This document shows, one piece after another, positions 13,010 to 40,495 of a DNA stretch of 64,000 nt. Position 1 is the stretch's first letter. Each line of letters opens with the position of its first letter. The notes beneath the pieces were generated by a model that did no database searches, had not been told where the DNA came from, and saw nothing but the letters and a program-made list of their open reading frames with translations. Made by a program: the position numbers and the translations under genes. The stretch comes from Haladaptatus sp. R4 (GTDB lineage Archaea; Halobacteriota; Halobacteria; Halobacteriales; Haladaptataceae): positions 248,001 through 312,000 of the forward strand of contig NZ_LWHG01000021.1 of NCBI RefSeq assembly GCF_001625445.1, read 5' to 3'.

Positions 13010-13735
13010 TCACAGATCGTCGTACACGGCGAGCGCGGCTTTTCGCCCGCTCTCCATCGCGGCGTTGAGCGAGGACGCCTCGGTGTAGTCCCCCGCGAGG
13101 TACACTGACGTCTCGTCGGTTCGAGTAGTCGGGAGCGTGTCGAAGACTCCCGGCGGTTGGGCGAACTGCGCGAACTCGATGCGGTCGGTGTGGAGGTGTT
13201 CGAGAGAGTCAAAATTCCGGTCGGGATACCACCGCTGTAGCGTCTCGACCACCGTTTCCGCCAGTTCCTCGTCCGACTCATCGGGCAGGCCGAGGAACGT
13301 CGCGGAGAGGAGTTCGCGCCCGTCGGGGGCGAACTCCGGCGCGACCGTGGACAGCGGGACGATTTCGTTCGGCGCGTCGTTCCCGACGTTGAGCAGGATT
13401 CGGTCGCCGGTGTCGAGCGGTTCGTCGTGGGCGAAATACTGGGTGACACAACTGCGAGCGTCGGTCGGAATCGAATCGACGCCCGTCAACTCGCGCGCGG
13501 CCTTCGGGTCGGTGGCGACGACGGCGGCGTCGCCGGTGATGGTTTCACCGCCGATTTCGACGTGGACTTCGTCGTCGTCCGATTCGACCGCCGAAACGAC
13601 CTCTTCGAGGTGAATCGTCGCCCCGGCCGCCCGTGCATTCCGCGCCAACTGTTCGGAAATCGCGCCCATGCCGTCGGCGGGAACGGCGATTCGTCCCGTG
13701 GACAGCATCTTGAACGTGAACTCGAACACCTTCTT
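13010..13735 (-). pseudogene. FAD-dependent oxidoreductase, C-terminal part (split by the element)
   Basis: This is the 3' half of an amine-oxidase/phytoene-desaturase-like gene. Residues VFEFTFKMLSTGRIAVPADGMGAISEQLARNA continue naturally from the N-terminal half at 22669-23210, which ends TLDRSLSTSKKV. It includes the substrate/FAD domain and the final FAD-binding motif (SVYLAGDYTEASSLNAAMESGRKAA). The separation is caused by the inserted element. An ATG exists just inside the element (13777), so a truncated product is possible, but it would lack the Rossmann domain and be inactive. Confidence 0.85.
13721..13735. repeat. Left attachment site (attL core)
   Basis: aacaccttctt at 13725-13735 is repeated exactly at 22669-22679. 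Including flanks, ctc(g/c)aacaccttctt matches over 15 bp with one mismatch. Joining the host halves across the core restores the oxidoreductase frame, so this is the recombination core. It is protein-coding, not part of a tRNA. Confidence 0.8.
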
Positions 13736-13779
13736 GGTGTTTAGCGAGTACTTACATCGTATTACGACGAAGGACAACT

Positions 13780-14268
13780 ATGCCAAAGAAAGTTATCTCC
13801 ATCAAAGTAGGAGAATCGGTTAAAGATGAGTGGCAACAGCACGTTGAAGGAAATCCCGAAGTCGAGTCAGTCTCTCACCTAATCAGACTCTCGGTAAACA
13901 AGGAAATTCACGGAGGGCACGAATCTCCCGAGAAGGCCGTACAGTCGTCCACAGACAGCAAGCAACTCGGAGAAGTGGTAGAAGGTCTATCGAAACTTCA
14001 AGACTCTGTAGAGGGCGTACAAGAGAGATTGACGGCTATAGAGAAGGAGAAAACCGTCACTCAAAACAAAGACATTCAGTCGATGGTTTTCGGCATGTTG
14101 CCAACGTGTGACCGTCCGAAGGAAGGTGCCACCGTTGAGGACCTTGCCAGTAACCTTGAGGAATCACGGGAGGATGTAGAGGAAGCCCTTCTTGACCTTC
14201 TATCAATCACCGGACAGATTCAGCACGAAGTTGTTAACGGTACCGAAAGGTGGTGGAAGAAAGAATGA
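13780..14268 (+). CDS. Ribbon-helix-helix/coiled-coil protein preceding the integrase
   Basis: A 162-aa protein. The N-terminus (KKVISIKVGESVKDEWQQHVE) looks like a ribbon-helix-helix DNA-binding unit. A coiled-coil follows (LGEVVEGLSKLQDSVEGVQERLTAIEKEK), then a winged-helix-like end (ATVEDLASNLEESREDVEEALLDLLSI). It starts 44 bp from attL and overlaps the integrase start (ATGA), so the two are coupled. Probable role: a recombination directionality or accessory factor, or a regulator of the integrase; this is inferred from position and domain type. Confidence 0.65.
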   Translation: MPKKVISIKVGESVKDEWQQHVEGNPEVESVSHLIRLSVNKEIHGGHESPEKAVQSSTDSKQLGEVVEGLSKLQDSVEGVQERLTAIEKEKTVTQNKDIQSMVFGMLPTCDRPKEGATVEDLASNLEESREDVEEALLDLLSITGQIQHEVVNGTERWWKKE

Positions 14269-15281
14269 CCGTCCTCGAAAACAAGTGGCCTTCAACGGAA
14301 GAGAGGTACGTCATTAAGCGACTGAAGCGGAAGAAAGGAGACTCCACGTTTACGGAGTACGAAAGGCACTGTCGAAACTTCCGCGATTGGCTGACAGACG
14401 AGGCTGATTTCCCGAAGGAATCCATCTTCGAGGCAACCAGTGCCGACATTGAGGACAACATCGCCAATATGCTGGATGAAGGGTATTCGGCCTCCTCCGT
14501 CCGTATTCGGCGTGCTGCTATCTCCGAGTTTTTCGAGGAAGCCTTAGGCTTAGACAGTCGTCGTCTATCCATAGACATTGACGAGAATCCGACCGACCGG
14601 GTGTCACTCGGCAAATGGCAGGAAATCAGCAAGCAGGAGAAGGAGAAGCAGTATGACAGCAAGGACGACGTACCGTACCTCACTCCCAAGGAAATCGACA
14701 CACTCGCTAAGAATGTACCGAAACCGTCTGTCCGTAACGAGTTGCTAATCAGACTCGCCTTTCAGACTGGCCTTCGTCGGAAGGAATTATGCGGCCTCAA
14801 GCTGGATGATGTAGACTTTGACGCACGTCGGGTACTTGTCCGGGAGGAAAATGCCAAAAATGGGAGAAGCCGAGTTGTCGGTTATCAGGCAAATCTCGAC
14901 TTCTTGATGAATCAGTGGGTAAGCGTCTACAGAAAGAGTGTCACGTATGCCGACAGTGAGTATCTTTTCCCAACCAACTACTCCGAGAAACTATCCGGCC
15001 TTCAGTTTAACCGGGTGGTCGGCAAAGCTGCCGAAAATGCCGGGATTCAAGAAGTGAAATCGACAATCAAGGACGGTCGGGAGAGGGCAGCAATTCACGC
15101 ACACGTCCTCCGTCACTCGTTTGCAATGGCAGCCATCGAAAACGGTTGGAATCTCTACGTACTGAAGGACGCTTTAGGGCATCATTCTGTTGAAGTGACA
15201 GAAAAGTACCTACACGAAGACGAGAAACGAGTAATGACAAACTTCGAGAGAAGAGGGCCTTCTACCTACGAAGGAGATTAA
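14265..15281 (+). CDS. Tyrosine recombinase (integrase)
   Basis: A 338-aa XerC/D-like integrase. The ATG at 14265 is preferred over the GTG at 14250 because it couples to the upstream stop. The N-terminal SAM-like DNA-binding domain (TFTEYERHCRNFRDWLTDE) is followed by the catalytic domain: Arg171 in FQTGLRRKELCGLKLDDVD, HAHVLRHSFA (His and Arg), LGHHSVEVTEKY with nucleophile Tyr315. All catalytic residues are present, so it should be active. It would recombine the 11-bp core at 13725/22669. Confidence 0.93.
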   Translation: MTVLENKWPSTEERYVIKRLKRKKGDSTFTEYERHCRNFRDWLTDEADFPKESIFEATSADIEDNIANMLDEGYSASSVRIRRAAISEFFEEALGLDSRRLSIDIDENPTDRVSLGKWQEISKQEKEKQYDSKDDVPYLTPKEIDTLAKNVPKPSVRNELLIRLAFQTGLRRKELCGLKLDDVDFDARRVLVREENAKNGRSRVVGYQANLDFLMNQWVSVYRKSVTYADSEYLFPTNYSEKLSGLQFNRVVGKAAENAGIQEVKSTIKDGRERAAIHAHVLRHSFAMAAIENGWNLYVLKDALGHHSVEVTEKYLHEDEKRVMTNFERRGPSTYEGD

Positions 15282-16263
15282 AGGCGGTTTTATCCATAGA
15301 GAAGCTGTCAGTCTACAGAATCCTTCTTTTTCGGTCGATTACCTCGTTTTTTGCACCTTAAATGCAGTTTAGCCGGTCAGATTCCAACAAGGCGACAAAT
15401 TTCACTCTCAAGAAGCTGTAATTTAGGTGGATGTCTTGCCTCTCGTTTTCTGAAGGTAGAGAGGTTGTATGTGAAGAATCCAATATTTCCATGGGGTTAA
15501 ATTCCAAATACGAGATGCATCACATTTTTGAGATGTCGGGCCGTCGATTTCGAGGTATTTCTGCCGTCGCGTGTTTGCTAACTCTGGCTTCGACCTCTGG
15601 GAGAAGCATACACTATCCTGACTCACAGGAAGCCCGCATTTGCGTCCTGACGGGATTCTTTCTCTCGTGAGTCCTATACCACTCCGAAAACCTCTTTCCT
15701 TTCTACGGGCAAGCTGCTGCCTTAGAAGACACACAGGAATATCTTGCCTCAAAAACCATATCGGTAGATTTAATACCATCCTCTCGAAATAGCTAACCGA
15801 GTAAAACGTTAAATGCCGTATTCTTGAGGTATAAACTTTCTCCTGCGGTTATAAACTCACTTAAAAGGTACTTAAGGGACCATTCTCAGAAGTTGAGAAT
15901 TAGAAACACGTTTCTCAGCTGTCCTATCTCTGTTTTGAAATAAACTAAACTATCGGTACCTTTAAGTACCCTGCCAACATATACTCTTACAAGAAGATTC
16001 GACTTAGAGACAAATCAGCGTTACTCTATCTATATACGGACTCTCGTCTATTCGGGGTTTCTAAAGCAAAAAGGGGAAGCTGACTTGACAGACAGCCAAC
16101 TGAGTGTATCAGCACTCAGGTAAGTAGATTATTACAGTTAAAAGATAGTCGTCGTACTATATAAGTCTTTCGTCGGCTTGAATTTCTTATCTATTCTTTT
16201 AGTGGTTGTCATGTCCAGCAACAGCGGTGTTGCTGAATTTCTTGTCGTCTTCGGTGATTCAAT
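15282..16263. other. Hairpin-rich non-coding region, about 980 bp (candidate origin)
   Basis: No credible gene: the frames here (for example 15423-15779 minus) have no start context or recognisable composition. Several perfect stems occur: CCTCTC/GAGAGG (15439/15459), GACTCAC/GTGAGTC (15620/15667), ATTCTCA/TGAGAAT (15882/15894), GGTAC/GTACC (15955/15966) and CTGAGTG/CACTCAG (16100/16113). GGTACTTAA (15867) also pairs with TTAAGTACC (15962). It ends with a TATA box (TATATAAG near 16158) for the HNH-rep operon. An AT-rich, palindrome-rich region upstream of rep suits a replication origin; that function is inferred. Confidence 0.5.
16216..16235 (+). promoter_or_regulatory. Leader hairpin before the HNH-rep operon
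   Basis: CAGCAACA-gcgg-TGTTGCTG, a perfect 8-bp stem, ends 28 nt before the HNH start. It lies downstream of the TATA-like TATATAAG, so it should be in the transcript. It could be a translational control hairpin or a protein-binding site. Confidence 0.5.
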
Positions 16264-17121
16264 ATGACACAAGAGAATCAAGACCACGAAATTGACGACC
16301 AACACATAGAAACATTAATCGACCAACTCGAAGCACCACACCAGAATAAGACGGTACTAACTCACCTCTACGTAGAGTGTGTATACAACACCTACGAGTG
16401 TGCTGACATACTTTCAGTCTCACAGCGTACTGTTAGAAAGTGGCTTAAAGACTGGAATATCCCTCGGAGAGGACACGGTGGCCGGAAGAAGACTCATCCA
16501 TCATTTACCAGCTTTACACCCAAGGATAACGATTATATCCACGTCCAAAGTGGAGATAAGACAGCTTATATCCACCAGTTAAATCTAATCGCTGATGGTC
16601 ATGACCCAAATGACGTATTTGGCAAGGATAATCACGTCCACCACATTGACGGAATTAAGTATCACAACCTACCCGAGAATCTAACGCTGATGGATGTGTC
16701 AAAACACCATAAGCACCACAATGATGTAATGTACGCTGACTCTCCGTGGAGAAACCAAGAGGTAATGCAAGCACTGGTAGATGAGAAAGTTAGCATCCAG
16801 TATGCTTCAGACATTATCGACTGCAATGACGCCACAATACGAGAGTGGAGAAACAAATTCGACCTTGAAGGTGACACTCTCCGACGAGATAACAACGAGG
16901 TGACACCGTGGAGAAATCCCGTAATCCTCCGGTATCTGATTGAGGAAGAAGGTATTCAGCTTAAGCAAGCGTCAGAAAGGTTTGATGTAGACCCTTCAAC
17001 TCTGACGAAATATACTAATCTGCATGAAATAGACGTACCTAACGGTAGCCAGCGGGACATAATGCGAAAGGTGCGAGAGTTGCAACAACGTAACAGCGGA
17101 TTCATGGAGGCTGATGACTGA
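16264..17121 (+). CDS. HNH endonuclease-like protein with multiple helix-turn-helix units
   Basis: A 285-aa protein. The N-terminal HTH is YNTYECADILSVSQRTVRKWLKDWNIPRRGHGG. The HNH motif is NHVHHIDGIKYHNLPENLTLMDVSKHHKHHN (residues about 122-152), with the His-His, Asn and final His ligands in order. Two further HTH-like units follow (VSIQYASDIIDCNDATIREWRNKF and IQLKQASERFDVDPSTLTKYTNL). The layout resembles homing endonucleases that bind an extended site. The stop overlaps the rep start by 1 nt. It may cut at or near a specific element or host site; the target is unknown. Confidence 0.75.
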   Translation: MTQENQDHEIDDQHIETLIDQLEAPHQNKTVLTHLYVECVYNTYECADILSVSQRTVRKWLKDWNIPRRGHGGRKKTHPSFTSFTPKDNDYIHVQSGDKTAYIHQLNLIADGHDPNDVFGKDNHVHHIDGIKYHNLPENLTLMDVSKHHKHHNDVMYADSPWRNQEVMQALVDEKVSIQYASDIIDCNDATIREWRNKFDLEGDTLRRDNNEVTPWRNPVILRYLIEEEGIQLKQASERFDVDPSTLTKYTNLHEIDVPNGSQRDIMRKVRELQQRNSGFMEADD

Positions 17122-18761
17122 TGTCTAAAGCCGTTTCAGTTTCCTCTGCCTTCGAGGGTAATACCACCTTTGAGTGTAAAACCTCCTCTCGCCTCTCTCA
17201 ACTCGTCTGTGAGACGGCAGGATTCCTTGATGTAGAATCAGGGGAAACGGTACCGAAGGAGGAAGTTTGGCAGCAGGGCAAGGCCGTAGGGTATTCTCGT
17301 GGAGATTTCGAGGATATTCTCTCCAAAGCTGGTGCAACTGCTTCGACCTCCTTTGTCGTCCCCAAGAGAGACGGTACGCACTTGGGAGACGTATGGGCCT
17401 TTGAGAAGGAAGCCAGTAGAGTACCGGGTGCTAACTCCGTAAAAGACACCTTCGATGAATGGTTACAGTATAAACGAAACAAGAAGTACAAGGAAACTTC
17501 CTCTGGCAATAAGGTACAATTCCGTCCAGACCATTCTTTCAGTCGAAAGGAAGAAGATAGAAGGTTTGCCCGTGCTGCTGATGTCGAAAGATTCTACGTA
17601 CAGAATACAGACATTTATTCAACCGTCTGGATTTCACTTAGTGCTGACAATTCTGGAGAGACACCTGTAGAGAATGCCTCCAAATTCTTCCCATCGAAGC
17701 TGAAGGACAAAATCCGCAATGACCTCAAGAAGTACGACCTCTGGAAATCAGCTGCTGTCCTTCGAATGTTGGCACCTAATAAGCCACCGGACAACCTTCC
17801 GAAGACTCACGGACACCTTGCAATATGGATTCCGGGTGAGGTAACGCCGGAGATGTTTCACGGAATCGTTGAAAAGCACTGTGAGGAAGTACCGGGTGCT
17901 TCGATGGAGGACAATCCTCTTGACAAATCTGTGTCAGTACATGTACACATCTCGGATGAAGTGGAATCTCCCGACTACATCGACTCCTCGAAGGGACACA
18001 CGTCGGCGTTACCTCATGAAATCAGCAACAATCTCCCTATCTACAACGGAGAAATGGGTGCTGGTATGGATGCCCTCAATTGTCAGGAATACATCAAAGA
18101 GTGGTGTGCCTACATCTCTGCTGGAAACGATGGCAAGCATACAACGAATGGAATCCGTCGTTGGAGTCCTCAAGGGAATTTCAAGAAGATTGCCGACTAC
18201 ATGGACGGCCAGATTGACGACTGTAGAGTACCGGGGGTTAACTCCGTAAAAGAGGATGAATCTGTAGAGAAGAAATCTTCTGATGAATCACCTACTGTTG
18301 AGGAAGAAACTCACTCCAATGAAACCCCCGCCACAGTACCGGGGGCTACCTCCGTAAAAGAATCATCTTCGGAGAAGAAGTTTGCTTTCCAGCGAGAAGA
18401 TTACTTCAGTGAGGGTAAGCAATCTGCCCGTAGAGTACCGGGGACTAACTCGGTAGAAGAAACACCTTCTGATGAGTGTCCTTCCTCTATAGAAGGTAGT
18501 CCTTCTCACGATTCGACCTCCACAGTACCGGGGGCTACCTCCGTAAATGAGGAAACTACCTCTACTGAAAGTAGACCTTCGGAGAAATCCCCGCCAGCAG
18601 TACCGGGGGGTAACTCGGTAAACGAGGAGGAAGACGAAGGTTGTCCTCGTTGCAATAGCACCGACCTCCTCGAAGTGGATGTACCATATGCAGATGAGAT
18701 GTATGCTTGCTGCAATTGTGATAAGACTTTCACACGACGAAGCAAGGGGAAACTATCATGA
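17121..18761 (+). CDS. Large replication-initiator-like protein with embedded DNA repeats
   Basis: A 546-aa protein. Residues about 120-360 contain KTHGHLAIWIPG (His230-Gly-His232, compatible with the HUH metal motif) and EYIKEWCAYISAG (Tyr324, Tyr331 as candidate nucleophiles), suggesting a rolling-circle Rep. The motifs deviate from consensus, so this is tentative. Residues about 370-505 form a Ser/Glu-rich, probably disordered linker with five VPGxxSV peptides. A C-terminal zinc finger follows (CPRCN at 508 and CCNCDKTF). The VPG peptides are encoded by a 20-nt repeat that also exists in non-coding DNA. It overlaps the HNH gene. Alternative: a DNA-binding regulator rather than a Rep. Confidence 0.6.
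   Translation: MSKAVSVSSAFEGNTTFECKTSSRLSQLVCETAGFLDVESGETVPKEEVWQQGKAVGYSRGDFEDILSKAGATASTSFVVPKRDGTHLGDVWAFEKEASRVPGANSVKDTFDEWLQYKRNKKYKETSSGNKVQFRPDHSFSRKEEDRRFARAADVERFYVQNTDIYSTVWISLSADNSGETPVENASKFFPSKLKDKIRNDLKKYDLWKSAAVLRMLAPNKPPDNLPKTHGHLAIWIPGEVTPEMFHGIVEKHCEEVPGASMEDNPLDKSVSVHVHISDEVESPDYIDSSKGHTSALPHEISNNLPIYNGEMGAGMDALNCQEYIKEWCAYISAGNDGKHTTNGIRRWSPQGNFKKIADYMDGQIDDCRVPGVNSVKEDESVEKKSSDESPTVEEETHSNETPATVPGATSVKESSSEKKFAFQREDYFSEGKQSARRVPGTNSVEETPSDECPSSIEGSPSHDSTSTVPGATSVNEETTSTESRPSEKSPPAVPGGNSVNEEEDEGCPRCNSTDLLEVDVPYADEMYACCNCDKTFTRRSKGKLS
17422..17441 (+). repeat. 20-nt semi-palindrome, copy 1 (inside rep)
   Basis: taccgggtgctaactccgta, encoding VPGANSV at residues 101-107. 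It differs by one base from the non-coding copy at 22578. It lies far from the main linker cluster. Confidence 0.85.
17890..17900 (+). repeat. Partial copy of the 20-nt repeat (left half)
   Basis: taccgggtgct, encoding VPGA at residues 257-260, then the sequence diverges. It is in the same frame as the full copies. It could be a decayed copy or chance. Confidence 0.45.
18229..18620 (+). repeat. Five in-frame copies of the 20-nt repeat in the rep linker
   Basis: Full copies start at 18229, 18337, 18436, 18526 and 18601 (encoding VPGVNSV, VPGATSV, VPGTNSV, VPGATSV and VPGGNSV). Centre spacings are 108, 99, 90 and 75 bp, all multiples of three and shrinking. Sequences between the copies are unrelated Ser/Glu codons. 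Consensus: TACCGGGNGCTAACTCSGTA, often preceded by GTAGAG or CCACAG and followed by AAAAG. In the CGGTA versions the TACCG and CGGTA ends form an inverted repeat. Confidence 0.9.
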
Positions 18762-19155
18762 TTCCTCATACCCGGTAGCTTCGCAGAAACCTTTCTCCTT
18801 TCTTTGTAGCAGCAGCACCTTCAAATAGAGTAAACCCGGTTTTTCATAGGAGATTGTCAGAAACCCTACACTCTTCAAAATCAGGTACTGTCCGACCAGC
18901 ACCCGCGTGTGTACGCCCAGTCTGAAGAAAGTAGGTCTGTCTGACAAAGCATATAAACTACCTCGATAGAAACCTGTAAGAATCTCCAACAAAGCATAAT
19001 CTGTTTGTAGACTCCCCTAATTTCAAAACTGGAAGTTGGATATAAATACAATGCACATATCTGGTCTACAGTGTATGTAACTGCACAATTCGAGGCAAGA
19101 AGTGTCGTTTTTACTAAACGAAACCTGTAGTACTTGTAGGATACTTGAGTGGTAC
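18762..19155. other. Non-coding region after rep, about 390 bp
   Basis: No credible gene; the minus-strand frames lack start context. It is AT-rich. GGTTTTTCATAGGAGATTGT at 18838-18857 resembles a stretch just after the integrase (15286-15311). TATA-like boxes occur near 18949 and 19034. It probably separates the rep transcript from the hairpin region and may hold the rep transcript end. Confidence 0.45.
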
Positions 19156-19164
19156 TTTATAAGG
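19156..19164 (+). promoter_or_regulatory. TATA-like promoter before the hairpin region
   Basis: TTTATAAGG in an AT-rich setting. Archaeal spacing would put transcription start near 19185, just before the first hairpin, so the RNA would begin with the structured region. Confidence 0.5.
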
Positions 19165-19431
19165 AGGACTTTTCTTACTATCCGAACGGAGCTATATGAA
19201 ATGTAGTAGTATGGCTTCGACCGACTCTAAAGGTCGGACAACGACAAATTGGCATTCAGGGGGATTAGCGTCCCCCAACTCAGTATTCTCGAATGTCTTG
19301 GACTTAGTATAGTCATTCCTGAGTTGAAAAATAGTTAGAAGGTTGGCTTCCTCGACTGGTTTGCCGACCTCCTCGATTAGGTGCCTTTGGACACACTCTA
19401 AGGGTTTCAACAGACGTTATCGTCTGTCATG

Positions 19432-19448
19432 ACGGGTGCTAACTCCGT
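19432..19448 (+). repeat. Short hairpin related to the rep repeat, copy A
   Basis: acgggtgctaactccgt shares the core GGGTGCTAACTCCGT with the rep copies but begins ACGG, so its ends (ACGG/CCGT) pair. It lies in the RNA-like region. Confidence 0.7.
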
Positions 19449-19461
19449 TTAAAGGTTAGCG

Positions 19462-19478
19462 ACGGTGTCTAACACCGT
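19462..19478 (+). repeat. Short hairpin related to the rep repeat, copy B
   Basis: acggtgtctaacaccgt is a perfect 6-bp stem (ACGGTG/CACCGT) with loop tctaa. It keeps the GGTG-TAAC core of the rep repeats while both arms changed together, as expected if pairing is selected. Confidence 0.7.
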
Positions 19479-19605
19479 TTCACTCAAGTTAGAGAGGGAT
19501 TACAGACACCTCTATGCAAACGTCTTAGGCCGTGTTGTATCATTTAACGCTTTAGATACAATACCACCGATGGTTTGACTTGTGCCATTACAAGCAGGTC
19601 ACTTA

Positions 19606-19637
19606 GGAAGTTGTCGGTCAAACGACAGCTTCCCTTT
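19606..19637 (+). terminator. Long hairpin followed by a T-rich tail
   Basis: GGAAGTTGTCG and CGACAGCTTCC pair over 11 positions (one G-U) around the loop gtcaaa, followed by ctttt. It may end the candidate RNA or act as a processing site 19 nt before the first small gene. Confidence 0.5.
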
Positions 19638-19655
19638 TCATAAATCATAACAATC

Positions 19656-19802
19656 ATGAGGACTAAAAATATCAGAGTTTCGGATGAAGAATTTGCACTA
19701 CTGGAGTCATATTGCACTCACGCTTACGGTAGCCCAGATAGCATTGCTTTCGGTGCAGCAATGCGTGAATGTATCGAGTACAAAATGGAGGCAGACAGAT
19801 AA
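19656..19802 (+). CDS. Small element protein, 48 aa (RHH-like)
   Basis: Starts at the ATG at 19656: MRTKNIRVSDEEFALLESYC, ending CIEYKMEADR. The N-terminal strand followed by helices suggests a ribbon-helix-helix fold; this is tentative. It is first in a run of overlapping small genes; its TAA overlaps the next ATG (TAATG). It follows the hairpin region by 18 nt. Confidence 0.65.
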   Translation: MRTKNIRVSDEEFALLESYCTHAYGSPDSIAFGAAMRECIEYKMEADR

Positions 19803-20008
19803 TGTCTCACGGTGAGTTAGTTAAATTTACGGTTGAGTTTAAAGATGAAGATGTAGACCTTCTACGAGATTACGTAGAGGCAAACGGAGGAGTTGGCGGT
19901 TACGATAAGAAACAGCGACGGATGGATTTCTCTTATCACGTACAGAGGGCAGCTATTGAGACGTTTAAAGAATATAGCGAAGACGAAGACGAGGAAAACG
20001 AGGAATGA
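19802..20008 (+). CDS. Small element protein, 68 aa
   Basis: The start ATG at 19802 overlaps the previous stop; the longer in-frame version beginning at 19769 sits inside the previous gene. Sequence: MSHGELVKFTVEFKDEDVDL, then a Gly-rich turn, a helix and an acidic tail. No family recognised. A strand-then-helices pattern again hints at a small DNA-binding fold. It overlaps the next start by 4 nt. Confidence 0.65.
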   Translation: MSHGELVKFTVEFKDEDVDLLRDYVEANGGVGGYDKKQRRMDFSYHVQRAAIETFKEYSEDEDEENEE

Positions 20009-20235
20009 GTAACGCCTTGCAAGTGAAGGAAACTGTCCGACTTCTCCTTGAAGACGCAGGGAAGTCTGAAGTACGCGATTCCTGTGTACGCCAGTCCAAG
20101 GAAGGTGTGTGGCTTTATATAACCACAGAAGACGGCGAAGAATATTCTCTTGGTAGTCTATTCCGTGAGGTAGATGACGACCTCATTTCTCAATTTGAAG
20201 AAGAGTTGGAGGAGGAGTTGGAGAAACACCTATGA
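20005..20235 (+). CDS. Small acidic element protein, 76 aa
   Basis: Starts MSNALQVKETVRLLLEDAGK. It has an alpha-beta pattern (VWLYITTEDGEEYSLGSLF) and an acidic helical tail (EEELEEELEKHL). Family not recognised. It overlaps both neighbours by 4 nt (ATGA), so it is translationally coupled in the element operon. Confidence 0.65.
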   Translation: MSNALQVKETVRLLLEDAGKSEVRDSCVRQSKEGVWLYITTEDGEEYSLGSLFREVDDDLISQFEEELEEELEKHL

Positions 20236-20459
20236 AGACTCCTAAGCAGCAGGTAGAAGACAATCTTCAGACAATCCGAGAAGAGTACGGAAACCAGCCT
20301 CTCGGACACCACGACGTATCTATCAGGGAAGACCGTGCTATCATTGATACAAAAGTCTCTAACGACTGTGAAAACCATCAGCAGATTACATGGCTGGTTT
20401 ACGGCGAAAACCTAACTCATCCTCAACTCGCAGGCTTGATTTTTGAAACAGAATTATGA
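20232..20459 (+). CDS. Small element protein, 75 aa
   Basis: Starts MKTPKQQVEDNLQTIREEYG; the C-terminal part (ITWLVYGENLTHPQLAGLIFE) looks like a strand-helix unit. No family recognised and no membrane segment. It overlaps both neighbours by 4 nt. Confidence 0.65.
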   Translation: MKTPKQQVEDNLQTIREEYGNQPLGHHDVSIREDRAIIDTKVSNDCENHQQITWLVYGENLTHPQLAGLIFETEL

Positions 20460-20611
20460 GTTACTTAGACGACCTCAAGGAATTAGAGGCAGAATTATCA
20501 GAATCGGGGAAACTCCCATATCTCCTCGATTCAGTACGGCGGTCAATCGCACGACAAGAAGAGAATAATCGGACAGTCGCACAGTTATCAGACAATAACA
20601 AGGAGAAATAA
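20456..20611 (+). CDS. Small element protein, 51 aa
   Basis: The start ATG at 20456 overlaps the preceding stop. Sequence: MSYLDDLKELEAELSESGKL, then YLLDSVRRSIARQEENNRTV and a polar tail. Mostly helical and charged, possibly a coiled-coil adaptor. No family recognised. Two nt separate it from the next gene. Confidence 0.6.
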   Translation: MSYLDDLKELEAELSESGKLPYLLDSVRRSIARQEENNRTVAQLSDNNKEK

Positions 20612-20613
20612 AC

Positions 20614-20916
20614 ATGAAAGGCACAGTTACAATGAAATTAGATGAAGAGACACGGCGGAATCTAAGAATTATCGCAGAGGAAAAGTACGGTGGAGAAATC
20701 AACGCAAGTGAAGCACTCAAGAAGCTTGCAGCAGAGGAAGTCACGGAGTTGATGGAGACACAGGAAGCTATAGAGGCAAAGCAAGAGGCACTACGGGAAG
20801 GCTTTGGCAATTCCGACGATGGGGACACCTCCAACAAGGAAACGGATTCAGACGACAGTGTGGCTGCACAGAAGCAGGCAGAGATTCGAGAGAATATGCT
20901 TGGAGGCAACCAATGA
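20614..20916 (+). CDS. Putative ribbon-helix-helix protein, 100 aa
   Basis: The N-terminus MKGTVTMKLDEETRRNLRII fits a ribbon-helix-helix DNA-binding domain, with a second helix EINASEALKKLAAEEVTEL. A disordered acidic Asp/Ser-rich segment follows (GNSDDGDTSNKETDSDDS). It could be an operator-binding or copy-number regulator. It overlaps the next gene by 4 nt. Confidence 0.65.
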   Translation: MKGTVTMKLDEETRRNLRIIAEEKYGGEINASEALKKLAAEEVTELMETQEAIEAKQEALREGFGNSDDGDTSNKETDSDDSVAAQKQAEIRENMLGGNQ

Positions 20917-21197
20917 AAGGACAATCAGTTGGCGACGTAACAATCCCGCTTACTCTCTACAACCAGCTATTCGCTGAATCGCAGCACGATGGGATTAATG
21001 AAATCAAGGAGAAGTATCCAGACCGAATGGGTAAAGGAGATGTAAAGCTTTGGGTACTACAGGCATGTGTAGAGAAAGCGGTACGTGAGGGACGAGTCGA
21101 TGGTTTGGATGAAGATGATGATGTTTTCGTTACCATTGCTGGCGGTATCAAGAGGTTTGACGACTCCGAAAGAGATTCCTCCGGCAGATTCCAGTAG
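20913..21197 (+). CDS. Element protein of unknown function, 94 aa
   Basis: Starts MKGQSVGDVTIPLTLYNQLF. A helical middle (VKLWVLQACVEKAVREGRV) is followed by an acidic turn and VFVTIAGGIKRF. No family recognised. It directly abuts the tail-hub-like gene, so the two may be coupled. Confidence 0.65.
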   Translation: MKGQSVGDVTIPLTLYNQLFAESQHDGINEIKEKYPDRMGKGDVKLWVLQACVEKAVREGRVDGLDEDDDVFVTIAGGIKRFDDSERDSSGRFQ

Positions 21198-22310
21198 ATG
21201 ACTGATTTTGTGTCTCAAGAGGTTGATTGTACTATACTCATAGAGGGATTGCCGTATCTTGTGACAGATATGAATGTAAAGACGACTCAATATAATGAGG
21301 CTGATATGTGTCAGGCTACTGTCGTACCTGACGGACACCAGTTTCAGCCAAATGCAGGCAACGACGCAGCTGTTACAATCAATGACGACCTTGTATATAC
21401 AGGATATGTCAGAGAAGCTAACAACAATGCTGATGGCAGCTATGACGTGAAACTCCTCGATGCAATCCACCTCCTTCAGTCGGGAAGAGTAAATATTTCA
21501 ACAGACACGCAGATTCCAGCCAGCGACCTTCTACGAAATCACTTGTTTCCTCAATGCAACGTTGAAAACTTTGAAATAGACCTTGCAAGTAAGGCAGAGA
21601 GTCACCTTGCAAGCAAGTTAGGTCTTTCTGGCAGCTACGGATTACCTGTAGACAATGACATTGTATTAGACCGTACCGAAGCACCGGGAAATAAAGTCCT
21701 CGATGATGTAGCCACTATGTGTAACGCCGTTTGGTGGGTCGATATTGAGGGTACTATCCACGTAGGGCAACCCGAGTATCGCTATCACGGCGAGTTAACG
21801 TACATTCTCGAAAACGGAAACACTCCGGGAAAGCTAACACCTGCATACCAAAGTGTAGTCGTCAGAGGTGACGGAGTGGTTTCGGCAGGTGGCAAGGGTT
21901 GGCAGACTCGAAACCTCATCTCTAAAGAAGGTGTCAAGTCTACAAGGACACTCAAGAATCTTGGTGCAACTCAAGAAGAAGCTAAGGAGATTTCGCAACG
22001 GGATAAGGTCGAGTATGCAGTAGAAGAGGGTACACTTACACCACCAACATTCACAGTGACAATCCCTGAATTAAAGACTCAATCGCAGGCTGATGCAGCA
22101 GCAAATAGACTTGCCAGCAAGTTGATAGAACAAGCTGGAAAAGGACACGTCAAAGTATGCGGTCGTAGCGATATACAGGTCTGTGATTCGTTTAAAATGC
22201 CTGACGAGTTGGGTGGTGCGATTTATCAGGTGAGTGGCATCGAGCATATCGTAAACTCCTCGGATGGATTTGTCTCAAAAATCTACTGCGGTGGAGTCCT
22301 ACAGCCTTGA
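21198..22310 (+). CDS. Phage tail-hub-like protein (late control D/gp27-type fold)
   Basis: A 370-aa protein. The N-terminal part resembles the paired beta-barrels of baseplate hub proteins (CTILIEGLPYLVTDMNVKT, then NDDLVYTGYVREA). The C-terminal ~95 residues follow the gpD/VgrG-like pattern: a helix with QSQADAAANRLASKLIEQ, then VCGRSDIQVCDSFKMPDELGGAIYQVSGIEHIVNSSDGFVSKIYCGG. Such proteins cap or centre contractile tails and injection machines. No sheath, tube, baseplate or capsid genes are visible here, so it is an orphan. It is last in the small-gene run. The assignment is by sequence pattern only. Confidence 0.6.
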   Translation: MTDFVSQEVDCTILIEGLPYLVTDMNVKTTQYNEADMCQATVVPDGHQFQPNAGNDAAVTINDDLVYTGYVREANNNADGSYDVKLLDAIHLLQSGRVNISTDTQIPASDLLRNHLFPQCNVENFEIDLASKAESHLASKLGLSGSYGLPVDNDIVLDRTEAPGNKVLDDVATMCNAVWWVDIEGTIHVGQPEYRYHGELTYILENGNTPGKLTPAYQSVVVRGDGVVSAGGKGWQTRNLISKEGVKSTRTLKNLGATQEEAKEISQRDKVEYAVEEGTLTPPTFTVTIPELKTQSQADAAANRLASKLIEQAGKGHVKVCGRSDIQVCDSFKMPDELGGAIYQVSGIEHIVNSSDGFVSKIYCGGVLQP

Positions 22311-22668
22311 TTTGTGATACTGTTTTTCTGTAGCCACACAAATCTCGTGTGTTAGTTAGTTTCACGAGTAATTAACTCTACAAAAAAGGCTAATTCTCTA
22401 CGATTTTACCACCTATATTTTCAGTCGGGGTGGGGTGACATTGAGACGATTTTCTTTTTCGCTGATATAAAAAAACTGAGTAGTGGCAACATTTGCACCA
22501 GCCCCTTGCAACACCACTTTGTTTACTCAAAGGGGTAGGGGTTATGCGAATGTGAGTGCCTACAAACGTCTGTAGAGTACCGGGTGCTAACTCGGTAAAA
22601 CTCCTTGTCGATACTTTTATGCTGCCATAGGGTTATGGGTAATACGTCGTAATTCGCAATAATACTCC
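22311..22668. other. Right-end non-coding region, about 360 bp
   Basis: No gene. It holds CACAC/GTGTG and CCCCTT/AAGGGG stems, the last copy of the 20-nt repeat (22578), and a TATA-like TACTTTTATG near 22612. In a circular form this region lies just upstream of the integrase operon. Confidence 0.5.
22578..22597 (+). repeat. 20-nt semi-palindrome in non-coding DNA
   Basis: taccgggtgctaactcggta: same sequence as the rep copies (one base from copy 17422), preceded by GTAGAG as there. It is outside any gene, 72 bp before attR, showing that the repeat is not merely a peptide motif. Confidence 0.9.
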
Positions 22669-22679
22669 AACACCTTCTT
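22665..22679. repeat. Right attachment site (attR core)
   Basis: aacaccttctt at 22669-22679, the partner of 13725-13735. On the right it continues directly into the host oxidoreductase codons (SLSTSKKV on the minus strand). Confidence 0.8.
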
Positions 22680-23210
22680 CGAGGTCGAAAGCGACCGATC
22701 CAGCGTGATACCGCCGTAAAACGGCCCGACGAAGTTGTCCCGAAACGACTCGGAGAAACCGCGTTTGCGGAGGTATTCCTCGATGGACTCGTCCTCCCCT
22801 GCGAATATCTCGCGGTTCGGTTTGCGGGTCAGCTCTCGCCGGAGTTTCAAGGTCCGAACCTTGTCGCCGAGACGAACCTCGCGGTTCGCCATCGACTCGA
22901 ACAGCGTGCCGGGATCACGAAGCGGGTCGCTCAGGATGGATCGACTGCCGGGACGGGCGAGCACCGCGCCGGGGGCGAAATAGCGCAGATCGAGTTCGTC
23001 GAAGTCGAGTTCACGTCTCGCGGCAGGGTAGGAGGTAAAGAGCACCTGAAAGCCACGGTCGAGGACGAACCCGTCTTTCCGCTCGGTTCGGACCCGGCCG
23101 CCGACCTCGTCCTCGCGTTCGAAGACGTGAACGTCCACCCCCAACCGGGCGAGGTGCCGGGCGGCGACGAGGCCCGCGAGTCCCGCCCCGGCGACGATGA
23201 CTGTGGTCAT
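22669..23210 (-). pseudogene. FAD-dependent oxidoreductase, N-terminal part (split by the element)
   Basis: Start ATG at 23208-23210 (MTTVIVAGAGLAGLVAARHL): a Rossmann FAD-binding motif, then VHVFEREDEVGGRVRTERKDGFVLDRGFQVL, as in NAD(P)/FAD-dependent amine-oxidase or protoporphyrinogen-oxidase-like proteins. It breaks after TLDRSLSTSKKV, which joins to VFEFTFKML at 13735. The frame runs on about 17 residues into the element before a stop. The intact gene followed the Nudix gene on the minus strand. Confidence 0.88.
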
Positions 23211-23269
23211 GGGGGAAGGTCGGTCGTCCTCCGTAAACCTCTCTCGGCCCATCAGGTTGGGGTTCGACG

Positions 23270-36251: not shown

Positions 36252-36616
36252 CATCACGGCCACGAATGCGCGACCCGAGTACGATGCTTCCCGGCCTCGT
36301 CGCGGTTGCGCTGTTCGTCGTTCTCGCCGTCGTGTTCCTCGGTGCGTCGTTCGGCGACGCACGCGGTTTCGCAAGTGGGGCCAACATCACGGCGAGCATC
36401 GGCTATTCGATGTTCAATATCGGCACCGTCGGCGGGGAGACCCTCGTCCACGGCGAGGGATTCCTCGCCGCGTTCGAGGTTATCGACCTCGTGCTCGTCG
36501 CGGCGCTGGTGGGTGCGGTCATGCTCGCCAGCCGCGAGGATAGTGGCATACTCACGACCGCCACCTCGCCGCTTCGAACCGACGGCGGCCGGACGAAAGG
36601 AGGTGACGAGGAATAA
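36248..36616 (+). CDS. nuoJ2: Complex I subunit J, C-terminal half
   Basis: A 122-aa membrane protein with hydrophobic segments LVAVALFVVLAVVFLGASFG and VIDLVLVAALVGAVMLASRE and a charged tail. The final VGAVMLA pattern matches the NuoJ C-terminus. Overlaps nuoK by 1 nt. Confidence 0.85.
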   Translation: MTSRPRMRDPSTMLPGLVAVALFVVLAVVFLGASFGDARGFASGANITASIGYSMFNIGTVGGETLVHGEGFLAAFEVIDLVLVAALVGAVMLASREDSGILTTATSPLRTDGGRTKGGDEE

Positions 36617-36924
36617 TGGCAGCAGTACCTGTCCAATACTACCTCCTGCTTTCGGCGGCCGTGTTCTGCACGGGGTTGTTCGGCATCCTCACCCGGAAGA
36701 ACGCGATGATGTTCCTCATCAGCGTCGAGTTGATGCTCAACGCGGCGAACATCAACCTCGTCGCGTTCTCCCACTACTACGGCAACGTGACCGGCCAGAC
36801 GTTCAGTCTGTTCACGTTGGCGCTCGCGGCCGCGGAGGTCGCGGTCGGGATCGGCATCATCCTCGTACTGTATCGTAACTTCAACGACGTGGACGTGACC
36901 CAAGCGACGACCATGAGGTGGTAA
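36616..36924 (+). CDS. nuoK: Complex I subunit K
   Basis: A 102-aa protein with three membrane segments and the NuoK glutamate region NAMMFLISVELMLNAANINLVAF, then the second conserved Glu in AAAEVAVGIGIILVLY. Both Glu residues are part of the proton path. Normal length. Confidence 0.95.
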   Translation: MAAVPVQYYLLLSAAVFCTGLFGILTRKNAMMFLISVELMLNAANINLVAFSHYYGNVTGQTFSLFTLALAAAEVAVGIGIILVLYRNFNDVDVTQATTMRW

Positions 36925-36925
36925 A

Positions 36926-38956
36926 ATGACGGCAACTGCATTCCAACTGGCACCCGTCATCGCACTCCTGCCGTTCATCTCGTTCCTGATAGCGATGCTC
37001 GGCGGCGAGTTCGCCCGCAAGATGCTGCCGAAAGGCGGCGCGATTCCGGGCATCATCGCGACCGGTGGATCGCTTCTCCTGTCGCTGTGGGCGTTCCTCA
37101 CGGTGAGCGGCGGGAACACCTACCACGAGATGATCACGTGGGTTCCGGGTGACGCGTACGATACCTTCACCTTCCACTTCGGTATCTTCATCGACCCGCT
37201 GTCGGCGTTGATGCTCGTCATCGTCTCGCTCATCGCGTTCCTCGTCCACATCTTCAGTCTGGGATACATGAACGACGAGGGCGAAATCGGGCTGCCGCGC
37301 TACTACGCCGGTCTCGGACTGTTCGCCTTCAGCATGCTCGCGTTCGTCTTCTCGGACAACCTGCTGATGTCGTTCATGTTCTTCGAACTCGTCGGGTTCT
37401 GTTCGTACCTGCTCATCGGGTTCTGGTTCCGCGAACAGGGACCGCCGAGCGCCGCGAAGAAGGCGTTCCTCATGACGCGCTTCGGGGACTACTTCTTCTT
37501 CATCGGCGTGGTGGCCGTGTTCGCCACCTTCGGCACGGCCCAGTTCGCTGGAAGCAACTCGTTCGCGCATATGGCCGACCAGGCCATGTCGGGGAGCGGA
37601 AACGCGACCCTCCTCTTCGGTCTCGATCCGAAGACGTGGTTCTCGATCATCGGTCTCCTCGTGTTGGGCGGCGTGCTCGGGAAATCCGCACAGTTCCCGC
37701 TCCACACGTGGCTTCCCGACGCGATGGAAGGCCCGACGCCCGTCTCCGCGCTGATCCACGCCGCGACCATGGTCGCGGCGGGTGTGTATCTCGTCGCGCG
37801 GATGTACGGCTTCTACGCCCTGCTCCCGCAGGTGCTCGCCATCATCGCGTTCATCGGTGGCTTCACGGCGCTGTTCGCGGCGACGATGGGCGTCGTCAAA
37901 CAGGAACTCAAACAGGTGCTCGCGTACTCCACCATCTCCCAGTACGGGTATATGATGCTCGCACTGGGGTCGGGTGGGTACGTCGCGGCGACCTTCCACC
38001 TGATGACCCACGCCTTCTTTAAGGCGCTCCTGTTCCTCGGAGCGGGGTCGGTCATCATCGCCATGCACCACAACGAGAACATGTGGGACATGGGCGGTCT
38101 CAAAGACCGAATGCCCGTCACGTACTGGACGTTCCTCGCCGGGTCGCTCGCGCTCGCGGGCATCGTTCCGTTCGCCGGGTTCTGGTCGAAGGACGAGGTG
38201 CTCTACGAGGCGCTCGTCCACGGCATGGGCGGCAACCCGCTGTTGCTCGTCGCGTACGCGATGGGTCTCATCGCCGTGTTCTTCACCGGGTTCTACACCT
38301 TCCGGATGGTCTTCTTGACCTTCCACGGCGAACCCCGGACCGACACGGCGCGTGACCCGAAGGGCGTGGGTTGGAACGTGAAGTTCCCGCTCGTCGTCCT
38401 CGGCATCCTCGCGACGGTCGGTGGCCTCGTCAACATGGGACCGGTTGCGAACCTGCTCGACGCGTCGAACATCGAGTTCCTACACGCGTGGCTCGACGGA
38501 CCGGTCGCCTCGACCAGCGTCCACCACTACGAGGAACTCGTCAACGCCACGTACGGCGAACCGGCGTCGTTCTCGTCGCTGATTTCGAGCCTCGTGTCGC
38601 TCGCGTTCGCGCTCGCGGGCCTCGCGCTCGCGTGGTCGCTCTACAACGTTCCCGAACCTGTCGAGCACACGGACAAGTTGGGCGGCGCGAAGACGCTGCT
38701 GTTCAACAACTACTACCAGGACGAGTATCAGGTCTGGCTCGCGACCGGAATCACGCTTCCGGTGGCACGCGCGGTGGACAAGTTCGATCAGGGCGTCATC
38801 GACGGCGTGGTCAACGGCGTCTCCAGCGTGAGCCTATTCGGCGGCAGTCGAGTGAAGCGGGTACAGGACGGCATCGTGACGAACTACGCGCTCATGTTGG
38901 TGCTCTCGTTCGTCATCCTGCTTCTCATCCTCGGCTTCACCGGAGGTTGGTTTTAG
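36926..38956 (+). CDS. nuoL: Complex I subunit L (antiporter-like)
   Basis: A 676-aa multi-pass protein. Key residues: Glu in MFFELVGFCSYLLIGFW, Lys in SAQFPLHTWLPDAMEGPTPVSALIHAATMV, and the C-terminal lateral helix leading to FDQGVIDGVVNGVS. It belongs to the Mrp/antiporter family and pumps protons or Na+. One nt separates it from nuoK. Confidence 0.95.
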   Translation: MTATAFQLAPVIALLPFISFLIAMLGGEFARKMLPKGGAIPGIIATGGSLLLSLWAFLTVSGGNTYHEMITWVPGDAYDTFTFHFGIFIDPLSALMLVIVSLIAFLVHIFSLGYMNDEGEIGLPRYYAGLGLFAFSMLAFVFSDNLLMSFMFFELVGFCSYLLIGFWFREQGPPSAAKKAFLMTRFGDYFFFIGVVAVFATFGTAQFAGSNSFAHMADQAMSGSGNATLLFGLDPKTWFSIIGLLVLGGVLGKSAQFPLHTWLPDAMEGPTPVSALIHAATMVAAGVYLVARMYGFYALLPQVLAIIAFIGGFTALFAATMGVVKQELKQVLAYSTISQYGYMMLALGSGGYVAATFHLMTHAFFKALLFLGAGSVIIAMHHNENMWDMGGLKDRMPVTYWTFLAGSLALAGIVPFAGFWSKDEVLYEALVHGMGGNPLLLVAYAMGLIAVFFTGFYTFRMVFLTFHGEPRTDTARDPKGVGWNVKFPLVVLGILATVGGLVNMGPVANLLDASNIEFLHAWLDGPVASTSVHHYEELVNATYGEPASFSSLISSLVSLAFALAGLALAWSLYNVPEPVEHTDKLGGAKTLLFNNYYQDEYQVWLATGITLPVARAVDKFDQGVIDGVVNGVSSVSLFGGSRVKRVQDGIVTNYALMLVLSFVILLLILGFTGGWF

Positions 38957-40495
38957 ATGATAGTCGAAGCACTTCTCGCGGTAACGTTGGTCAGCGCGTT
39001 CGCGACCTTCCTCGCACCGGACAAGGTCGCGGGGAAACTCGCGTTCGTGCTGAGTCTGCTCCCGGCGGCCGGGAGCATCTGGATGTACAGTGCCTTCGAC
39101 GGCAGCGGTAACGCCCTGTTGGGCGGGACGCTCGCCTTCGAAGAGACGTTCAAGTGGGTCTCGTTCGGGCAGTACACGCTGAACTGGCACGTCGGACTCG
39201 ACGGCATCAGCATGCCGCTGTTGTTGTTGACGACGATTCTCACGCCGCTTGCGATTCTATCGGCGTGGACGCCGATTCAGTCCCGTGAGAGCCAGTTCTA
39301 CGGCCTGATGCTGTTCACCGAAGTGTGTCTCATCGGCCTCTTCTCGGCGCTCGACTTCTTCGTCTGGTTCGTCTTCTGGGAACTCGTGTTGGTCCCGATG
39401 TACCTGCTCATCGGCGTGTGGGGCGGCCCACGGCGCAAGTACGCGGCGATCAAGTTCTTCGTCTACACGAACGTCGGGTCGCTGCTGATGTTCATCGGGT
39501 TCATCGGTCTCGTCTTCGGACTGGGCGACTCCATCCACTCCCTCAGCATGCCCGCAATCGCGCAGGCGCTGAACGGCGGACAGTTGGGAAGCCTCGGCGG
39601 CATCGCCCCGAGCACGCTGAAGACGCTGGCGTTCTTCGCCATCTTCATCGGATTCGGCGTGAAGGTGGCCGTCATTCCGCTCCACACGTGGTTGCCGGAC
39701 ACCTACGCCGAAGCGCCGACGCCGGTCGTCATCATGCTGTCCAGCCTACTCCTGAAGATGGGGACGTACGCGCTGTTGCGCTTCAACTTCACCATGCTTC
39801 CGGACGTGGCGAAACAGTACGCGTTCATCATCGCCCTCGTGGCGGTTGTCACCGTCATCTACGGTGCGCTGCTCGCGCTGGCACAGTCGGACCTGAAACG
39901 GATCGTGGCGTACTCCTCGATTTCGTCGACGGGGTACATCGTTCTCGGACTGGTCGCGTTCACGATGTACGGCATCGGTGGCGCGACCCTCCAGATGGTC
40001 GCCCACGGCCTCATCTCGGGACTGATGTTCATGGCCGTCGGCGTCATCTACAACAAAACGGGGACCCGGATGGTCTCGGACATGTCCGGGTTGGCCGACG
40101 AGATGCCGATCACGGTCACCCTGTTCGTCGCGGGTGCGTTCGGCTACATGGGCCTGCCGTTGATGGCCGGTTTCACGGCGGAGTTCTTCATCTTCGTCGG
40201 GGCCTTCCACTCGACGGTGCTCGCGGGCAACGCGCTCGCACTGTTCACTGCGGTGGCGATGTTCGGCATCGTCATCGTGGCCGGTTATCTGCTGTTCGCG
40301 ATGCAACAGACCCTCTTCGGGCCGTTCAAGCTCGAAAACGGCACCGAAGTCAGTCGTGCGTCGTTCCACGACGTCGCACCGCTCGTCGTGCTCGTCCTGC
40401 TCATCATCCTGCTCGGTGTGCAACCGAACATCCTCTATCAGATGATTCAGGACGCCGTGGGTAAGATGGCGCTCGTCACGGGAGGTGGGTTCTGA
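38957..40495 (+). CDS. nuoM: Complex I subunit M (antiporter-like)
   Basis: A 512-aa multi-pass protein: FVWFVFWELVLVPMYLLIGVWGG (Glu), VAVIPLHTWLPDTYAEAPTPVVIMLSSLLLKMGTYALLRFNF (Lys), AYSSISSTGYIVLGL. It immediately abuts nuoL and overlaps nuoN by 1 nt. Confidence 0.95.
   Translation: MIVEALLAVTLVSAFATFLAPDKVAGKLAFVLSLLPAAGSIWMYSAFDGSGNALLGGTLAFEETFKWVSFGQYTLNWHVGLDGISMPLLLLTTILTPLAILSAWTPIQSRESQFYGLMLFTEVCLIGLFSALDFFVWFVFWELVLVPMYLLIGVWGGPRRKYAAIKFFVYTNVGSLLMFIGFIGLVFGLGDSIHSLSMPAIAQALNGGQLGSLGGIAPSTLKTLAFFAIFIGFGVKVAVIPLHTWLPDTYAEAPTPVVIMLSSLLLKMGTYALLRFNFTMLPDVAKQYAFIIALVAVVTVIYGALLALAQSDLKRIVAYSSISSTGYIVLGLVAFTMYGIGGATLQMVAHGLISGLMFMAVGVIYNKTGTRMVSDMSGLADEMPITVTLFVAGAFGYMGLPLMAGFTAEFFIFVGAFHSTVLAGNALALFTAVAMFGIVIVAGYLLFAMQQTLFGPFKLENGTEVSRASFHDVAPLVVLVLLIILLGVQPNILYQMIQDAVGKMALVTGGGF

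Follow-up and report, generated by a model that had tools for sequence, protein, structure and literature searches.

Within a small integrative element of a haloarchaeal chromosome, about 450 nt separate the replication gene from a run of small genes, and the question raised by this interval is what it does there. An initial annotation described it as gene-free and rich in stems, and proposed either a large structured RNA of the mobile element or a long structured leader of the small genes; a replication origin and the debris of a palindromic repeat are further readings that need to be weighed. We analyzed the interval in its window (the whole stretch of DNA considered here, 64 kb, corresponding to C21:248001-312000 of the chromosome) and against its own genome of 4.9 Mb. 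The sequence evidence indicates that this region of the 9-kb element, between the replication gene and the small-gene operon, probably encodes a heavily folded RNA of ~455 nt.

The element spans about 13725-22679, and its borders are marked by a drop in GC content from 65% in the host to 42-51% inside, as well as by a direct repeat of the attachment core AACACCTTCTT (left copy at 13725-13735, right copy at 22669-22679). At this 11-bp repeat the element splits a minus-strand amine-oxidase/phytoene-desaturase-like gene, the halves of which correspond to ORFs 13010-13777 and 22617-23252 (a label assigned by eye from the translations). The cargo comprises a small DNA-binding-type protein, a tyrosine-type integrase (PF00589), an HTH-HNH-HTH protein, Rep, the small-gene run and, in last position, a baseplate-hub-like protein. 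Some 980 nt between the integrase and HNH genes (15282-16263) also carry no coding signal.

The interval at 19187-19640 is indeed devoid of genes, as initially described. Stop codons interrupt all three plus-strand frames. In none of the six frames does the codon-usage score exceed 0.02, whereas the element's own genes that served as the yardstick score 0.14-0.29. A 48-aa ribbon-helix-helix (RHH) gene excluded from the training set scores 0.08, and a 72-aa TTG-initiated ORF on the minus strand (19192-19410) scores 0.05. A hidden gene or pseudogene in the interval is ruled out by codon usage.

The abundance of stems is likewise borne out. Counting only hairpins of 6 or more Watson-Crick pairs, a measure that is neutral with respect to strand, we find 10 non-overlapping hairpins with 71 Watson-Crick pairs; 200 shuffled sequences average 3.45 hairpins and 22.7 pairs, and reach at most 8 and 52, respectively. 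Among 281 window positions the interval ranks first in hairpin content, narrowly ahead of position 52438 (10 hairpins, 69 pairs). Folded as plus-strand RNA, it reaches a minimum free energy of -157.5 kcal/mol (z -5.96), with none of 100 shuffles as low; the minus-strand RNA yields a z-score of -4.21, and folding as DNA yields -3.99 and -3.00 for the plus and minus strands, respectively. A low folding z-score is in itself weak evidence, because the nuoL/nuoM-type genes at 36300-39300 of the same window score equally low (-4.4 to -5.9 on both strands, in 300-nt windows). The near-pairs within stems lean towards a plus-strand RNA: G-U (or G-T) pairs outnumber A-C pairs by 9 to 3 (p 0.15), and by 7 to 0 in the convincing plus-strand stems once one doubtful hairpin is set aside. 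Between rep and the interval, the minus strand holds a second structured stretch (18843-19020), which scores z -3.3 when 226 nt are folded and -4.6 in a 120-nt window. A TTTATA box precedes it at 19041, and the stretch is possibly a divergent RNA.

The individual stems provide a means of judging whether this excess could be non-functional, made up of remnants of the element's palindromic repeat and of hairpins that arise by chance in a gap of low GC content. Stem 1 (19187-19219) contains 11 bp, including 3 G-U pairs, with a mean pairing probability of 0.97. It is followed by the stems AGGUUGGC/GCCGACCU (19340-19370, probability 0.99) and GCCUUUGGA/UCUAAGGGU (19383-19405, probability 0.98), by a perfect 7-bp hairpin with a UUAU loop (19410-19427) identified by both folding and hairpin count, and by a 10-bp stem at 19532-19564 (probability 0.99). 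Two stems derive from the repeat, as the initial annotation had noticed, but from diverged copies of it: folding and repeat comparison identify copy A as the stem at 19438-19460 and copy B as the hairpin at 19461-19479. The repeat itself, AGTACCGGGNNCTAACTCSGTAAA, is a partly palindromic sequence of 24 nt with seven copies genome-wide, all of them within the element (17404-18625 and 22570-22602). Six of the seven are read in frame as part of rep, where they encode VPG-x-[NT]-SV; the seventh is located at 22570-22602. Comparison with viral contigs yielded a single chance match to the repeat and comparison with genome contigs yielded two, all unrelated. When all nine copies are compared, both partners change at two base pairs of one hairpin register, but these paired changes do not constitute proof of structure, since 45 of 500 shuffles match them. 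That two stems are repeat copies, that other window positions come near in hairpin content and that the nuo genes attain equal z-scores all speak for a compositional origin; yet the majority of stems do not derive from the repeat, the count of ten exceeds the maximum of 8 seen in 200 shuffles, and the stems are bracketed by a predicted promoter and terminator. We hence consider it rather improbable that the interval is non-functional debris.

The predicted promoter occupies 19149-19163 (GTGGTACTTTATAAG) and contains the TATA box CTTTATAA (19155-19162), an octamer with no second exact copy on either strand of the element (0.37 expected). The box lies about 27 nt ahead of stem 1, close to where the initial annotation had placed it, and a start ~27 nt past it would fall at 19184-19186, so that stem 1 would begin 1-3 nt into the transcript. 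A twin of this promoter, GTCGTACTATATAAG, precedes the HNH-rep operon at 16151-16165. The 15-mer pattern GTSGTACTWTATAAG, which describes both, has exactly these two sites in the 4.9-Mb genome, a count that overstates the surprise, given that the pattern was composed after both sites had been seen; even at two mismatches, however, the expectation for the window is only 0.07 matches. At the opposite end, the long hairpin with a T-tail reported initially proves to be an 11-bp stem with a 6-nt loop (19606-19633) followed by CTTTTC, forming a terminator-like unit at 19606-19639. Intergenic terminators of Haloferax volcanii consist of a T-stretch with the transcript ending at a C, and one tested hairpin in this species terminated 59% of transcripts (PMC7237163). 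Sites of this hairpin-T class show no enrichment across the element (7 observed, 7.7 expected). The interval thus presents features of a haloarchaeal transcription unit, with a TATA box ~27 nt ahead of the start and a T-stretch followed by C at the end, and the predicted transcript would run from about 19184/19186 to 19639.

The same hairpins might instead act as single-stranded DNA, serving as a nick site and a lagging-strand origin in which the repeat copies are Rep-binding palindromes. The rep gene (17121-18761, plus strand) encodes a probable HUH-type rolling-circle initiator. Its product matches PF07232 (putative rep) with an E-value of 2.3e-4, short of the curated cut-off, and its H-x-H motif is invariant in all eight aligned Reps. 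The AlphaFold model is modest (mean pLDDT 57.9) and gave no Foldseek match below E 0.001, but HUH proteins figure among its best structural neighbors (SIRV1 ORF119, Z 6.8; parvovirus NS1, 5.9; AAV Rep, 5.1; pMV158 RepB, 5.0), at values of 5-7 that are not decisive on their own. Taken together, the Pfam match, the H-x-H motif and the structural neighbors make it likely that Rep is a rolling-circle initiator. PF25227, the family that defines the Rep of Rep-Arvir replicons, was not among the Pfam matches of Rep, in a library copy whose inclusion of that family is unconfirmed.

The resemblance of Rep to an HUH nickase favors the origin, as do the adjacency of the repeat copies to the perfect hairpin at 19410-19427 and the precedent of SNJ2 (PMC13107129) and pRN1 (PMC3869888, PMC4234260), the likely origins of which are stem-loops downstream of rep. 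The element shares with these archaeal replicons the presence of structured noncoding DNA in that position, but the Pfam matches of its Rep include a weak one to PF07232 and none to the Rep-Arvir family of SNJ2; its region also extends further, comprises numerous individual hairpins together with a predicted promoter and terminator, and folds more strongly as RNA than as DNA. The strength of RNA folding relative to DNA folding and the lean of the stems towards G-U pairs both count against an origin, as do the seven intact repeat copies outside the region and the flanking promoter and terminator, which an origin would not need. Small haloarchaeal plasmids are nicked at the motif TCTCGGC, and this motif is absent here. 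An origin is an unlikely reading that nevertheless deserves serious consideration, and if correct it would supply an origin candidate for this element's group of Rep proteins.

If the interval is transcribed, the arrangement of the genes behind it bears on the form that the RNA would take. The downstream operon consists of an RHH-like gene, six small genes and a tail hub, with the small genes nearly abutting and all on the same strand. Its first gene (19656-19802) encodes the 48-aa RHH-like protein and starts 16 nt beyond the hairpin tail. Small RHH-like genes with weak similarity (E 0.01-0.5) also occur near rep in five related elements (L021, L016, L011, L024 and L022), which suggests that rep and RHH may form a conserved module. 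The product of the last gene (21198-22310) resembles a tail baseplate hub and aligns over 98% of its length, at 31% identity, with gene 23 of Halogranum tailed virus 1. This gene stands alone, with no other recognized virion gene in the 9-kb element, and might function as a satellite gene or in interference with viruses. A TATA-like site at 20113 lies within the third small gene and could be useful only to the later genes of the operon.

We favor, tentatively and at somewhat less than an even chance, a structured and mostly terminated leader RNA of the RHH, small-gene and tail-hub operon. In the mechanism that we infer, the promoter at 19149-19163 would drive transcription of about 19184-19639, the RNA would fold into a string of ~10 hairpins, and the last hairpin with its T4-C tail would halt most transcription, releasing a ~455-nt structured RNA. 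Part of the polymerase would continue into the operon 16 nt further on, so that folding of the leader might set the output of the RHH-like gene, the six small genes and the tail hub. This reading is preferred to a free-standing RNA because the 16-nt gap is too short to hold a promoter for the RHH gene, and on this ground the leader offered as an alternative in the initial annotation is slightly better supported than an independent RNA. Against the leader stand the lack of homologues in the collections searched, the low z-scores likewise reached by the nuo genes of the window, the post hoc composition of the 15-mer pattern and, in terms of length, the contrast between a leader of ~470 nt and the infrequency of 5′ leaders over 150 nt in H. 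volcanii, structured leaders being considered untypical of haloarchaea (PMC4983044).

A free-standing noncoding RNA, ending fully at 19639 and acting in trans, for instance through protein binding or RNA-only assembly, would not conflict with the scarcity of long leaders in H. volcanii (PMC4983044). It accounts for the two ends no less well than the leader does, as stem 1 and the last stem fit the predicted start and the T4-C end tightly. Noncoding RNAs are also the most abundant transcripts of phage ICP1 and PLE satellites (PMC7567579). Such an RNA would, however, leave the RHH gene without a promoter, it belongs to no Rfam family and has no homologue in the collections searched, and its antisense matches to the plus strand of the element are not above chance (longest pairing 11 nt); we regard it as an improbable competitor of the leader. 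A further variant, to which we assign a distinctly low probability, is a free RNA of a new class whose promoter motif recurs only at the replication operon, such that one element protein could bind both this RNA and the rep message and thereby tie copy number to the RNA. The link to the rep message is drawn from the resemblance of the two repeat-derived hairpins to hairpins in the rep coding sequence.

Searches for relatives returned no match to Rfam at the gathering cut-off anywhere in the window, and only three chance matches to unrelated families up to E 10 over 18700-19800. BLAST found no homologue of the RNA in 391 Halobacteria genomes, nor was a DNA homologue found in the genomes of the host's family, in 146 genomes of another family (an overlapping set) or in phages and plasmids; viral contigs queried with rep, HNH, the hub, one small gene and the copy-B hairpin gave no matches. 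A single-sequence covariance model of 19332-19481 attained its best foreign match in the 391 genomes at E 0.003, in one genome and at chance level. Recurrent matches of 20-36 nt to 19338-19384 in many genomes were discarded, because the genes hit are unrelated and the matches vary in both strand and frame; this is a chance effect of common haloarchaeal codon words. Relatives of Rep, with 23-33% identity, are present in 14 other genomes among the 391. An alignment of rep offers no stretch conserved enough to serve as a search query. In the loci of these relatives that were read we found no hairpin RNA, hub or small genes at significant E-values, and no comparable RNA adjoining rep or preceding RHH genes. 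Structured noncoding stretches do lie near rep at L021:7492-7850 (z -4.4) and L024:10225-10600 (z -3.5); these are long palindromes of another kind, unlike the hairpin string, and were rejected as relatives of the RNA.

Among known RNAs of mobile elements, GOLLD and ROOL (PMC12286853) resemble the predicted element RNA in being many-stemmed, several hundred nucleotides long, carried by mobile elements and devoid of a known protein partner. They are often, but not obligatorily, found near tRNA genes in phages or prophages, and are characterized by homo-oligomeric RNA-only assembly; many GOLLD members exceed 800 nt. The element RNA differs in its archaeal host, in matching no Rfam family, in its lack of covariation evidence and in lying away from any tRNA island; no tRNA or tmRNA was detected across the 64-kb window. 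HEARO, the IscB omega RNA, likewise lies near an HNH gene, but there the adjacent gene is of the IscB type (RuvC-HNH), whereas the HNH gene upstream of rep (16264-17121) encodes an HTH-HNH-HTH protein with HTH and HNH family matches only and no IscB/RuvC match, and the RNA has no Rfam match. The initial annotation had invoked GOLLD, ROOL and HEARO as precedents and claimed no homology, and kinship to any of them finds no support in Rfam matches, tRNA genes or an IscB-type gene; the part of its proposal that endures is a structured RNA of the mobile element, flanked by promoter and terminator, as the best single reading. The PLE satellites of phage ICP1 (PMC7567579) offer a parallel in setting, being small integrative elements in which a long stretch lacking ORFs separates gene clusters. 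Their noncoding transcripts have been measured, whereas the RNA described here is predicted from sequence. The PLE RNA is flanked by inverted repeats and runs antisense to its own leaders, an antisense relationship that the element RNA does not share.

If transcribed, the interval would add to archaeal integrative elements a new structured RNA that falls into no Rfam family and whose two ends are predicted with a precision of a few bases. The promoter motif that it has in common with the HNH-rep operon would make its regulation directly testable. Whether the product proved to be a large free RNA or a leader of 470 nt under regulation, the result would be informative.
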